Part shown: piece by piece, positions 2 through 34,958 of the stretch
How positions within the stretch are numbered: the first letter of the stretch is position 1
Layout of the letters: each line of letters starts with the position of its first letter
Virus record (IMG/VR): IMGVR_UViG_3300031726_000668
Location: 1 to 34,958 of that record
Direction: 5' to 3' (one strand)
Length of the DNA: 34,958 nt
DNA from: a virus
The notes under the pieces: model-generated
What the model saw: only the letters and a program-made list of their open reading frames with translations
Told to the model about the DNA's origin: nothing
Databases searched by the model: none
Program-made: the position numbers and the translations under genes

Positions 2-73
2 TCCGACGCGACCTCCGCCGCGACCGAAGCCGCGACCGACGCCGCGACCGAAGCCGCGACCCGAGACGCGACC
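2..73 (+). repeat. 12-bp tandem repeat array, left-hand part
   Basis: Six 12-bp units of the form gcgaccgaagcc/gcgaccgacgcc, encoding [24 protein letters not shown]. This is the continuation of the array at 34674-34958. The repeat probably caused the assembly to break here. Confidence 0.9.
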
Positions 74-811
74 CAGATCACGGCCTTCCTGCTCCGGTGC
101 TGCTCGCGCTGGTCGTATTTCTGGCAGGGCGGGAACCAGTGGTCTGCGTGGGCCTCCTACCTTTCATTTTTCCGGCATGTCGCAAAGCTCGATCTGCCCG
201 AGTACGCCCCCTTTGCGCATTGGGAGGATGCGGCGATCCACGCGGGGCCGCGCTTCATGCACGCGAAGTTCTGGATCGCGACGGGCTTCCCGATGGTCAT
301 CGGGCGCGACGAGGGCAACCGCTCGCACTCCGCCACCGGTCCCGCGATCGCATGGGCCGACGGGTGGGCCGTGTTCAATTATCACGGGATGAGCGTACCG
401 GCGGACCTCATCGAGCATCCCGAGCGCATCACGCTCGAGCGGATCCGCGGCGAGCTCAACGCAGAGATGCGTCGCGTGCTGATCGAACGTTACGGGCTCG
501 CTCGGTACGTCTCGGACTCCGGCGCAGAGGTGGTCCACGAAGACACAGACGCACTCGGCCATTCGAGGCGGCTACTACGCGCTGCAGTGCCGGGCGACGA
601 GCCCCTCACGCTGATCGAGCTCACAAACAGCACGCCCGAGCCCGATGGCTCGCACCGAATGTTTCACATCCGCGTTCACCCCGAGCTCCGACCGATCCCG
701 TTCGAGACGGGCGCGGAGTTCGGAGCGCCGCAGGCGATGACCACGCAGAACGCGGTCGCGAGCCTCTACGGGCTGCGCGGCGAGGAATACCACCCGGCGC
801 AGGAGACCTAG
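2..811 (+). CDS. DUF6745-type protein, C-terminal part (5' end at other window end)
   Basis: The reading frame is open from base 2 to the TAG at 809-811 and has no start here. It opens with six four-residue units of the type xAAT or xDAT, then a W/F-rich segment (FWQGGNQWSAWASYLSFFRHV), a conserved PEYAPF block, an HSATGPAIAW-DGWAVFNYHG block and a C-terminal LYGL-EEYHP block. I recognise this order as the C-terminal domain of DUF6745-type proteins, which are common in Myxococcota and actinobacteria and have no established function. The N-terminal part of the same gene begins at 34269 and runs off the right end in the same repeat. Three bases after the stop the next ORF starts, so it is probably cotranscribed with the HTH and integrase genes. 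Family assignment is from memory of the motif pattern; function is unknown. Confidence 0.75.
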   Translation, partial: SDATSAATEAATDAATEAATRDATQITAFLLRCCSRWSYFWQGGNQWSAWASYLSFFRHVAKLDLPEYAPFAHWEDAAIHAGPRFMHAKFWIATGFPMVIGRDEGNRSHSATGPAIAWADGWAVFNYHGMSVPADLIEHPERITLERIRGELNAEMRRVLIERYGLARYVSDSGAEVVHEDTDALGHSRRLLRAAVPGDEPLTLIELTNSTPEPDGSHRMFHIRVHPELRPIPFETGAEFGAPQAMTTQNAVASLYGLRGEEYHPAQET

Positions 812-814
812 GCG

Positions 815-1177
815 ATGAGCGCCGCGGTCTCGCCCCAGCTGCTCACGCGCGAGGCCGCGGCGCGCTTCCTCGGCGTCACGTCGAAATCGTTCACGCGGCA
901 CGTGCAGCCGCAGATCAACACCATCTACGTCGGACGCCGTCCGATGTTCGCAGCGAAGGACATCGAGCAATGGGTCGAAGACCGCAGGGATGGCGTCTCT
1001 ATCCAAAGCGCGGCTGGCTCTACGTCGCATTCACGTTTGCGGGCGTCGAGCACCGTATCGCCCTCGGTACGCGCGATCATGGCGAGGCTGGAAAGCTCGC
1101 CGCGAAAGAGTACGCCGAGGTTGTTTCCGGTCGACGGCGGCCGCTCCGGAAGCGGGGGCCCGCCCTCCTCGACCTGA
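815..1177 (+). CDS. HTH DNA-binding protein, excisionase-like (MerR/HTH_17 type)
   Basis: The N-terminal 55 residues (LLTREAAARFLGVTSKSF, then VGRRPMFAAKDIEQWVEDR) match the short helix-turn-helix plus wing of excisionase and HTH_17 proteins: a helix, 'AARFLGV' turn, recognition helix, and a basic beta wing ending in 'DIEQWV'. The ATG lies 3 bases after the stop of the DUF6745-type gene. From about residue 52 the frame overlaps the start of the integrase gene, and residues beyond about 60 are low-complexity Ser/Arg and probably carry no fold. Its position before the integrase suggests a recombination directionality factor. Alternatively, it and the integrase were once one polypeptide. The N-terminal domain is well supported; the role is inferred. 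Confidence 0.65.
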   Translation: MSAAVSPQLLTREAAARFLGVTSKSFTRHVQPQINTIYVGRRPMFAAKDIEQWVEDRRDGVSIQSAAGSTSHSRLRASSTVSPSVRAIMARLESSPRKSTPRLFPVDGGRSGSGGPPSST

Positions 1178-2037
1178 AGTTGCTTATCGCCGAATGGATC
1201 GATTCGCTCAACGGAGAGCTCGACGTGGAGACGATCAAGACCTGCGAGATCTACGGGCGCAAGTACCTCGGCTTCTTCAAGGAGGCCGACGCGCTCACGT
1301 CGGAGTCGATCGGAGACTACGTGCTCGCGCGGATGCGCGCGGTGACGCGGAAGACGATGCTGAAGGAGCGAACGTTCCTCCGCCGCTTCCTGCGCTGGTG
1401 CGTCTCGAAGCGGGTGCTCCCGAATGTTCCCGCCTTCCCCGAACTGCCCGCACCGTCGGCACTCGGCACGCGCTCGGGGAAGCAGCGCCTCAAGCCCGTC
1501 GAGATCACGCCGGCGGAAGCCGCGGAGATCCTCACGGCGCTCCCGAAGGAGTCGAAGCGGATCGGTGCACGGAAATGGCCTGTGCGCGCGCGCTTCGCGT
1601 TCGCGTGGGAGACGGGCCTGCGGCCGGAGACGGTCTCGCGCATCGACGTGCCGCGGACGTGGCAGCGCGGTGCGCGGGAGCTCGAGCTCCACGACGAGGA
1701 CGACAAGGCCCGCTACGGACGCATCCTGCCGATCACCGACGAGGCGGTGCGGCTGCTCCTCGAGGTCGCGCCGCCGGAGGGCGTGGTCTTCGGCGATCAC
1801 AATTTTTCGAAAGCCATCAAACGCGCAGCGAAGTCGGTTCTGGGGCCCTTCCGCGGCGCGCGCTTTGCCCCGTACGATTTCCGCCACGGGCGCGCGCAGC
1901 AGCTCGTCGACGAGACGGGCGACCTCGCCGGCGTGGCGTACGTACTCGGGCACAAGAGGCTGAGCACCACGGACCGGTACACGCGCGGCTCGCGTCGCGC
2001 GGCAGAGCGCGTGCTGCGCGGACGGAGGACGGCGTGA
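970..2037 (+). CDS. int: Tyrosine site-specific recombinase (integrase)
   Basis: 355 aa from ATG 970, preceded by GAAGGA with a 9-base spacer. The N-terminus (WRLYPKRGWLYVAFTFAG, residues 8-25) looks like an arm-binding or AP2-like beta domain, followed by a SAM-like core-binding region (about 70-155). The catalytic domain carries R218 in 'ETGLRPE', K246 in the beta-hairpin 'DDKARYGRILPI', 'YDFRH' (Y302, R305, H306), H328 in 'LGHKRLSTT' and the nucleophile Y337 in 'DRYTR'. Tyr in place of the first His of HxxR is common in phage integrases. The gene overlaps the upstream HTH frame by 208 bases. The attP-like tRNA fragment lies about 150 bases downstream, the usual arrangement for a tRNA-targeting phage. 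All catalytic residues are present, so it is likely functional. Confidence 0.95.
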   Translation: MGRRPQGWRLYPKRGWLYVAFTFAGVEHRIALGTRDHGEAGKLAAKEYAEVVSGRRRPLRKRGPALLDLKLLIAEWIDSLNGELDVETIKTCEIYGRKYLGFFKEADALTSESIGDYVLARMRAVTRKTMLKERTFLRRFLRWCVSKRVLPNVPAFPELPAPSALGTRSGKQRLKPVEITPAEAAEILTALPKESKRIGARKWPVRARFAFAWETGLRPETVSRIDVPRTWQRGARELELHDEDDKARYGRILPITDEAVRLLLEVAPPEGVVFGDHNFSKAIKRAAKSVLGPFRGARFAPYDFRHGRAQQLVDETGDLAGVAYVLGHKRLSTTDRYTRGSRRAAERVLRGRRTA

Positions 2038-32938: not shown

Positions 32939-33463
32939 CTACGGATGTCGCTTTTTCGCAACGCGAGCAACGCCTCGCGGCGCTTCACGCTTTGCTCTCA
33001 TTAGCAAATCACCAGCATCACGACGAAGGTCGGCAACGGGCCGGTCCGATGACCGCAATTGCTCGATAAGCCTCAAAGCCTCTTCGTATATGGCGCGCTC
33101 TGTCACGGAAAGCTCCTTCCCGGAAGCGAGCCACGGTAGCGCTACTCTCTTATGCCCAGCAAGGCGCTCTAGAAGAGGGGAGAGATCCGCAGAGGGGTCC
33201 CCCTCAATAGCCTCTGCGATCGAGTGCAAATCAGACACCTCGACGCCGAGGGATAACGCAACACGCTCGGCTACGGTCTTCCCTACACCGAGGGTTCCCT
33301 GTCGTATTTGCGTCACATTTGATCTGGCGACTTTGAAGATCTCGTCAGCGAGGACCGCGTCCGTCCGGCCCGTCGCCTTCGATGCTTCGATCAGGCGCGC
33401 AACGAACTTGGTGAGCGGGTCGTCCTTCGGCACGGTACCCGGCGTACCAGATTCTGAATTCAC
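32939..33463 (-). CDS. XRE-type phage repressor (CI-like)
   Basis: 174 aa from GTG 33463. Residues 16-80 form an XRE helix-turn-helix ('PLTKFVARLIEASKATGRTDAVLADEIFKVARSNVTQIRQGTLGVGKTVAERVALSLGV'), the typical N-terminal domain of lambda-type repressors. The rest is helical ('LPWLASGKELSVTERAIYEEALRLIEQLRSS') and ends in a basic tail. There is no S24/LexA-like autoprotease domain (no Ser-Lys pair), so induction must work differently from lambda. The gene lies between operator A and operator B and its start codon sits between two TTCTGAA half-sites, so autoregulation is likely. Confidence 0.8.
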   Translation of the reverse strand: MNSESGTPGTVPKDDPLTKFVARLIEASKATGRTDAVLADEIFKVARSNVTQIRQGTLGVGKTVAERVALSLGVEVSDLHSIAEAIEGDPSADLSPLLERLAGHKRVALPWLASGKELSVTERAIYEEALRLIEQLRSSDRPVADLRRDAGDLLMRAKREAPRGVARVAKKRHP

Positions 33464-33526: not shown

Positions 33527-33742
33527 ATGACGGGCTCCGAACTGTTCGCTCAATACATCGAGGCCAAGTGTGGGACGCGGCTGGCGGCTGCGTACGAACT
33601 GGGGGTGTCCGTCTCGACGGTGCACTACTGGCTCACGTCGTCGTCGCCACGCGTGAGTCACCGGAAAAAGATCGCGAAATGGTCGAGGGGTGCGATCGGA
33701 CCGGACGTTCCGTGGCGCGAAGCGAAAGGGCAAGCGGCGTGA
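33527..33742 (+). CDS. Cro-like HTH regulator
   Basis: 71 aa from ATG 33527, divergent from the repressor. 'SELFAQYIEAKCGTRLAAAYELGVSVSTVHYWLT' is a YdaS/Cro-type helix-turn-helix ('AAAYELGVSVSTVHYW' as turn and recognition helix). Its ATG follows operator B by five bases. It likely antagonises the repressor at the same operators and heads the rightward transcript that includes the DUF6745 module and integrase. Confidence 0.78.
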   Translation: MTGSELFAQYIEAKCGTRLAAAYELGVSVSTVHYWLTSSSPRVSHRKKIAKWSRGAIGPDVPWREAKGQAA

Positions 33743-33840: not shown

Positions 33841-34227
33841 ATGGCGAAGAAGACGACAGTGGCGAAGGCGATGTACCGACAGGGGGACGTTCTCCTGGTC
33901 CGCGATGACGGGCTGAAGGCGGGGAAGGAGATCACGCCGCAGGGCGGGCGCGTGGTGCTCGCCATCGGCGAGACCTCGATGCACTGCCACGCAGTGGATG
34001 CGTCGAAGGCGAAGCTCTTCGAACTCGCGCAGGGTGAGGAAGGCGTTGAGGCGGCGATCGACCGGTGCCTGGAGATCCTCACGGCGGCGACGGTGCGCGT
34101 CGAGTCGACGCAGACGCGCGCGCATCAGGACGAGCGGCACACGCCGATCGAACTGCCTCCGGGCAAATACCGCGTGCGCGTCATGCGTGAGTACCACCCG
34201 AGCATGATCCGCTCGGTCGAGGACTGA
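33841..34227 (+). CDS. Small His-rich protein paired with the DUF6745-type gene
   Basis: 128 aa from ATG 33841, preceded by AAGGAG. Signature blocks are 'YRQGDVLLV' (12-20), 'GGRVVLAIGETSMHCHAV' (35-52), and 'HQDERHTPIELPPGKYRVRVMREYHP' (95-120). H48, H50, H95, E98 and H100 are placed like a metal site of a small beta-barrel (cupin-like) protein; that is inference. I recall homologues with the pattern 'QGDVLL...GE.TGHaH...HeEH..i.lp.G.Y.V..QReY' next to DUF6745 genes in bacterial chromosomes. The next gene is 41 bases downstream, so the two form a unit. Function unknown. Confidence 0.7.
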   Translation: MAKKTTVAKAMYRQGDVLLVRDDGLKAGKEITPQGGRVVLAIGETSMHCHAVDASKAKLFELAQGEEGVEAAIDRCLEILTAATVRVESTQTRAHQDERHTPIELPPGKYRVRVMREYHPSMIRSVED

Positions 34228-34268
34228 GCGTTCGTCGGGCAACCACAATCGCGAAGAGGGGAACGACG

Positions 34269-34958
34269 ATGAGATCAAAAACGCTCTACACGCTGACCGA
34301 CGAACACCGCGCGCAGCTCGCGCCGTGGCGGGACAAATGGATCGCTAACGCTCTGCGGACAACGCCGCAGACGGACGAGGATCGGACGAAGGCGCGGACC
34401 GCGATCCGTGGGCTCTACACGGCGGCGAAGCTCCCAGTGCCGGAGCGCGACGTGTTCGTCGCGTCGCCGATTACCGGCGCGATCGCGGCGTCGGTCGCGG
34501 CGGGAGTGTGGTGGATCCGAGACCACCAGGGCGTGGCTCGCAAGCTCTTCGGCGTCATCCCCTCGGAAGCGCAGATCCGGGGCTCAATTGCGGCGGCCTG
34601 CGCGATTGCCGTAGCGCGCGGCATGTCGGCGGTCCGACATGAACCGCTCCCCCCGGTGCCGGAGATCGTTGCCGACGCCGCGACCTACGCCGCGACCTAC
34701 GCCGCGACCTCCGACGCGACCGACGCCGCGACCGAAGCCGCGACCTACGCCGCGACCTCCGACGCGACCCGAGCCGCGACCGACGCCGCGACCCGAGCCG
34801 CGACCTACGCCGCGACCGAAGCCGCGACCGACGCCGCGACCGACGCCGCGACCGAAGCCGCGACCTACGCCGCGACCGACGCCGCGACCCTAGCCGCGAC
34901 CGAAGCCGCGACCCGAGCCGCGACCTACGACGCGACCCGAGCCGCGACCGACGCCGCG
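34269..34958 (+). CDS. DUF6745-type protein, N-terminal part (runs off the window)
   Basis: ATG 34269 with GAAGAGGGG upstream; open to the window end (230 codons, no stop). The N-terminus '[58 protein letters not shown]' matches the start of DUF6745 proteins ('W...W...al.t.p.......a...lY...glp.P...v...SP'). Residues up to 135 are an Ala-rich helical domain, followed by at least 23 four-residue repeats. The rest of the gene is at 2-811. Joining the two window ends directly would shift the frame; 2 more bases, or 2 plus multiples of 12, would restore it. Confidence 0.75.
34674..34958 (+). repeat. 12-bp tandem repeat array encoding xAAT units, right-hand part
   Basis: About 23.75 units of a 12-bp repeat (core GCGACC plus a variable codon and GCC), encoding D/Y/E/R/S-A-A-T tetrapeptides. 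The first position varies (D, E, Y, R, L, S); the A-A-T positions are nearly fixed, apart from a few 'SDAT' and 'YDAT' units. The array continues at 2-73. Repeat number in the real genome is uncertain. Confidence 0.95.

Follow-up and report, generated by a model that had tools for sequence, protein, structure and literature searches.

A two-gene DUF6745 module in the switch-integrase interval of a phage, shared with bacterial chromosomes

DUF6745 (PF20530) is a catalogued family without a described function, and phrog_27831, the phage protein family to which the small partner described here is related, carries no annotation and is likewise of unknown function. The STM4011-4015 cluster (NF038073, NF006067, NF038074 and NF038076) often adjoins bacterial relatives of this gene pair. 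A search of open-access text by term returned no papers on DUF6745 and two that touch incidentally on STM401x genes, and neither the open-access papers searched nor PADLOC hold a described system corresponding to the pair, in agreement with the original prediction that it was undescribed. The pair is provisionally placed far from any known system. The DNA analysed (the window), a viral record, comprises 34,958 bases, and the two co-directional genes occupy its switch-integrase interval (Table 1). The phage is not itself an STM4011-4015 member, as it has neither an STM4014 nor a radical SAM gene.

The small gene and the DUF6745 gene are separated by 41 nt on the same strand, with AGGAGAGG placed close 5' of the ATG of the small-partner ORF (33841-34227) and AGAGGGGAA preceding the ORF at 34269-34958. 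The location originally proposed for the pair, between a cro-like gene and an integrase, was confirmed in the window by the phrog_35 ORF on one side and the excisionase-like ORF and phrog_1 integrase on the other. It does not extend to the carriers in general: among 50 viral records, counting the window, no more than 17 gave a PF00589 integrase match, and a temperate lifestyle as the general rule for carriers is not supported by these sequences.

Table 1. Features of the DUF6745 module and its surroundings in the window.
Feature	Position	Strand	Remarks
Small partner, 128 aa	33841..34227	+	ATG start; relative of phrog_27831
DUF6745 gene, 5' half (N-terminal domain and array start), 230 aa	34269..34958	+	Open at contig end
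DUF6745 gene, 3' half	2..811	+	PF20530 match spans 182-808
Tetrapeptide array, ~24 units X-A-A-T, X = D/Y/E/R/S	34662..34958	+	12-bp DNA period
Array end, DUF6745 gene	2..85	+	
Cro/repressor-like ORF flanking module	33527..33742	+	phrog_35
Divergent ORF, presumed repressor	32939..33463	-	Position only; without PHROG match
Excisionase/HTH-like ORF downstream of module	815..1177	+	phrog_597 and phrog_66, weak
Tyrosine integrase, start codon uncertain	about 955..2037	+	phrog_1 E 1.4e-27; PF00589

Viral contigs scanned with the window proteins alone gave no matches and an alignment of bacterial relatives was required; the viral and bacterial collections were therefore scanned with an alignment of the bacterial small proteins. 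The adjacency counts rest on our own HMMs, including a purpose-built and iterated one for DUF6745, and on six-frame ORFs, and the bacterial set consists of the best 80 of 544 relatives, which biases it to close ones. The same pair proved to be widespread in phages and in bacterial chromosomes, as originally stated for the latter, and the HMM check of adjacency proposed at the outset revealed a near-obligate association from the small-gene side. A same-strand DUF6745 gene accompanies the small gene in 62/62 viral loci and adjoins it, again on the same strand, in 78/80 bacterial loci (best 80 of 544 relatives), the exceptions being L085, which lies at a contig edge, and L091, one apparent orphan. 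Chance adjacency is ruled out by these counts. In about a dozen viral loci DUF6745 is placed upstream of the small gene, the order being flipped and the pair kept, and in Microcystis phages one gene stands between the two members. The gap between them has a median of about 0 nt and is within 60 nt in 109 of 123 cases, these lengths being lower bounds because each was counted to the closest start codon possible. None of the viral and bacterial loci examined showed the small protein and DUF6745 naturally fused. The distances of the two proteins are correlated (Mantel r of 0.77 for all loci, 0.94 for bacterial and 0.62 for viral ones; p about 5e-4), which, at the level of sequence distances, shows co-inheritance and not contact. 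As for L091, its small gene (about 1894-2202) is followed downstream by a large opposite-strand ORF that is unrelated and bears a short SGKM repeat of its own.

In the opposite direction, PF20530 matches served as the starting point and the small gene was sought within 1.5 kb of them. It was found in 29/30 Streptomycetaceae loci (the remaining one at a contig edge), 8/11 loci of the Actinomycetota sample, 2/4 planctomycete loci and only 6/23 cyanobacterial loci; DUF6745 without the small gene thus comprises 17/23 cyanobacterial loci, above all paralogues, plus a few other genomes. It follows from these counts that the small gene is far more dependent on DUF6745 than the reverse. The family itself is uncommon, being found in 11 of 396 Actinomycetota genomes, as against 70 of 150 Streptomycetaceae. 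Residue differences between paired and unpaired DUF6745 proteins were considered as a clue to an interface and discarded, given that the paired cyanobacterial loci L162 and L168 have unpaired-type sequence and the difference therefore follows clade. A Calothrix genome (L124) holds 13 DUF6745 matches, several of them interrupted by internal stops, which suggests that the family has expanded and decayed there.

A closer view of the small protein shows that phrog_27831 matches it over nearly its full length (residues 9-128 to profile positions 8-124, E 2.9e-10), the window protein differing from the profile by M47 in place of Gly and by two extra residues inserted within the second His pair. It had been called His-rich, a label that overstates its His content; what stands is a set of four conserved histidines, which are retained among relatives and fall in the window protein into two pairs, H48/H50 (HxH) and H95/H100. 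Residues G15, D16, E44, H48, H50, H100, G108, E117 and D128 are invariant or nearly so in the family, which also keeps a QREY-like segment and a C-terminal Asp. The AlphaFold2 model is all-beta, with a pLDDT of 83. No Pfam family covers the small partner, and it does not look like a cupin-type metal protein: comparison with the PDB by fold and by sequence gave nothing at E below 0.001, and no Pfam cupin domain was matched among 95 relatives. The nearest viral model in a BFVD fold search is an uncultured phage protein (E 8.7e-6). A weak resemblance was also seen to proteins of the Acidianus and Sulfolobus rod-shaped viruses, which are archaeal rudiviruses (E 0.013 and 0.061).

The assignment of the C-terminal part of the larger protein to DUF6745 is borne out by a PF20530 score of 142.3 bits against a gathering cut-off of 27, while the N-terminal domain and the tetrapeptide array of the window member fall outside that model. 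The C-terminal half was predicted by AlphaFold2 with a pLDDT of 87.5, and its first element is a long helix that covers the array remnant of the window. Fold and sequence searches of the PDB gave no significant solved structure similar to this half or to the small protein. Among relatives the C-terminal domain is constant and the N-terminal half is swapped, the latter being LRR-type in many bacteria or consisting of an N-terminal domain with MORN-like hairpins, to which the phage proteins add the long tetrapeptide array. Both LRR-type and repeat-type DUF6745 are accompanied by the small gene, so that the C-terminal domain is the shared part. One viral contig (L017, 34929 bases) matches PF20530 three times: a tandem pair follows the small gene, and the third match lies close to the other end.

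Repeats with a period of 4 residues, or in a few cases 3, that extend over at least 28 aa are present in 51/62 viral loci vs 0/80 bacterial ones (best 80 of 544), a comparison in which LRR-type members are over-represented on the bacterial side and the viral rows of L044, L063 and L074 derive partly from frames adjoining DUF6745 instead of the DUF6745 frame. A Nocardia plasmid copy (L009) carries a period-4 array as well. Near the pair of L063 (5347-6445) several short frames likewise bear period-4 arrays and seem to be distinct from the DUF6745 frame. The usual unit is X-[A/D]-[S/Q]-[V/L], where X is mostly Gly, Arg or Trp across phages; in the window X is Asp, Tyr, Glu, Arg or Ser and is followed by A-A-T. 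Array length differs among phages. The variation is concentrated at the first base of X, with a mean nucleotide entropy of 1.45 bits, vs 0.33-0.87 at the other eleven columns. Within one large array the Arg residues at X are encoded by AGG or CGG, not both, as read by eye from the codon tables, which would fit a reshuffling of a few founder units; ongoing hypermutation of the arrays or a diversity-generating element is not favoured on the same ground. Near-identical units differing at one main residue recall TAL-effector-like modular arrays, but the phage units are of 4 residues and without sequence relation to them, and the likeness is by analogy only.

The array is also the place at which the gene is divided in the window, the 12-bp tandem repeat running over 34672-34958 and being taken up again at 7-73. 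From the sequence we infer that ORF 34269-34958 and the frame at 2-811 are one gene cut inside this repeat, as originally proposed. The continuation is reached by inference because joining the end directly to the start breaks the frame and the window ends share no overlap; a loss of 2 nt together with any whole number of 12-nt units would bring the halves back into frame. The proposal gains from eight other, longer viral contigs, each of which breaks off within this gene and has the missing C-terminal half at the opposite end in matching orientation (L018, L028, L034, L047, L048, L065, L067 and L071), and with these the window fits a circular or circularly permuted genome that may have been opened at its own repeat. 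In total, 18 of the 62 viral loci found via the small protein hit a contig edge inside a frame matching our DUF6745 models; in one of them (L044) the frame consists of repeats only, so the match may be false. The left edge of L022 falls within the array, and in L024, L030, L049 and L060 the other DUF6745 half was looked for and not found.

The bacterial neighbourhoods bear on what the pair may do. Genes of the STM4011-4015 type, which NCBIfam named in one representative locus and which were assigned elsewhere by clustering, lie beside the pair in 37/80 bacterial loci (best 80 of 544) that span Planctomycetota, Actinomycetota, Chloroflexota, Methylobacterium and Deinococcus, and annotated plasmid records show the pair again in this context. 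This context would agree with the pair being the substrate, or a substrate with its escort protein, of a protein- or peptide-modifying pathway made up of the STM4011-4015 enzymes (radical SAM, ATP-grasp, hydrolase), the phage copy then tapping or saturating the host pathway. We hold this to be possible but unlikely: a VWA gene is found instead in 27 of the same best 80 loci, with a single overlap, neither neighbour is present in 17, none of the 50 viral records contains STM4014, and a radical SAM match is lacking in the window record. Nor was any recurrent neighbour common to phages found, be it STM4011-4015, VWA or other, and this, together with the same pair in bacterial chromosomes beside metabolic-looking genes and the position of the window pair far from the head and packaging genes, in the switch-integrase interval, makes a virion-associated or structural pair highly improbable, even though the long helix predicted over the array remnant and the variable array length between phages would suit a length-variable spacer.

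The data do not discriminate among defence, exclusion, regulation and modification, the roles first suggested for the pair. A toxin-antitoxin or anti-phage defence pair, by which prophages would act against competitors, would agree with two small, mobile, co-directional genes adjoining the lysogeny switch in the window and with the swappable recognition half. It is nevertheless distinctly unlikely, since the PADLOC models gave no match to the pair at E 0.1 except one weak one inside a repeat array, Pfam and NCBIfam reveal no toxin-like domain in either protein, and most carrier records have no integrase match. That the genes are linked passengers without a joint function, in keeping with their unknown function and with DUF6745 being able to occur alone, is very unlikely, given that over many phyla and diverse phages the genes stay adjacent and their residues are conserved, with gene order flipping but the pair not being lost.

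The reading that we prefer, and to which we give an even chance, is that the pair works as a single functional module and that its two products probably associate in a complex, with a small metal-binding beta protein and a DUF6745 scaffold bearing a swappable recognition half. The small protein would be a compact beta protein in which the HxH and H-x(2-4)-H pairs probably bind a metal ion. The constant C-terminal domain of DUF6745 would probably be the part that works with it, and the interchangeable N-terminal half may act in target recognition or as a scaffold for the target. The bacterial complex would serve the enzymes encoded next door, either the STM4011-4015 radical-SAM/ATP-grasp cluster or the VWA protein; in phages it would be carried alone, without the bacterial enzymes, as a non-structural accessory that may act on the host in the infected cell or lysogen. 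A bolder form of this module, which we regard as doubtful, is a new system of two unseen folds, a metal-binding partner and a scaffold that swaps an LRR or tetrapeptide recognition half, where the G/R/W and A/D units of the phage arrays would be reshuffled by repeat recombination, changing what is bound.

The phage arrays break assemblies, with the result that at least nine records, the window included, look linear although, to judge by their ends, the genomes would be circular or circularly permuted. As a near-obligate pair found in many bacterial phyla and in diverse phages, and having neither a solved relative nor a PADLOC model, the DUF6745 module constitutes a clean target for discovery.
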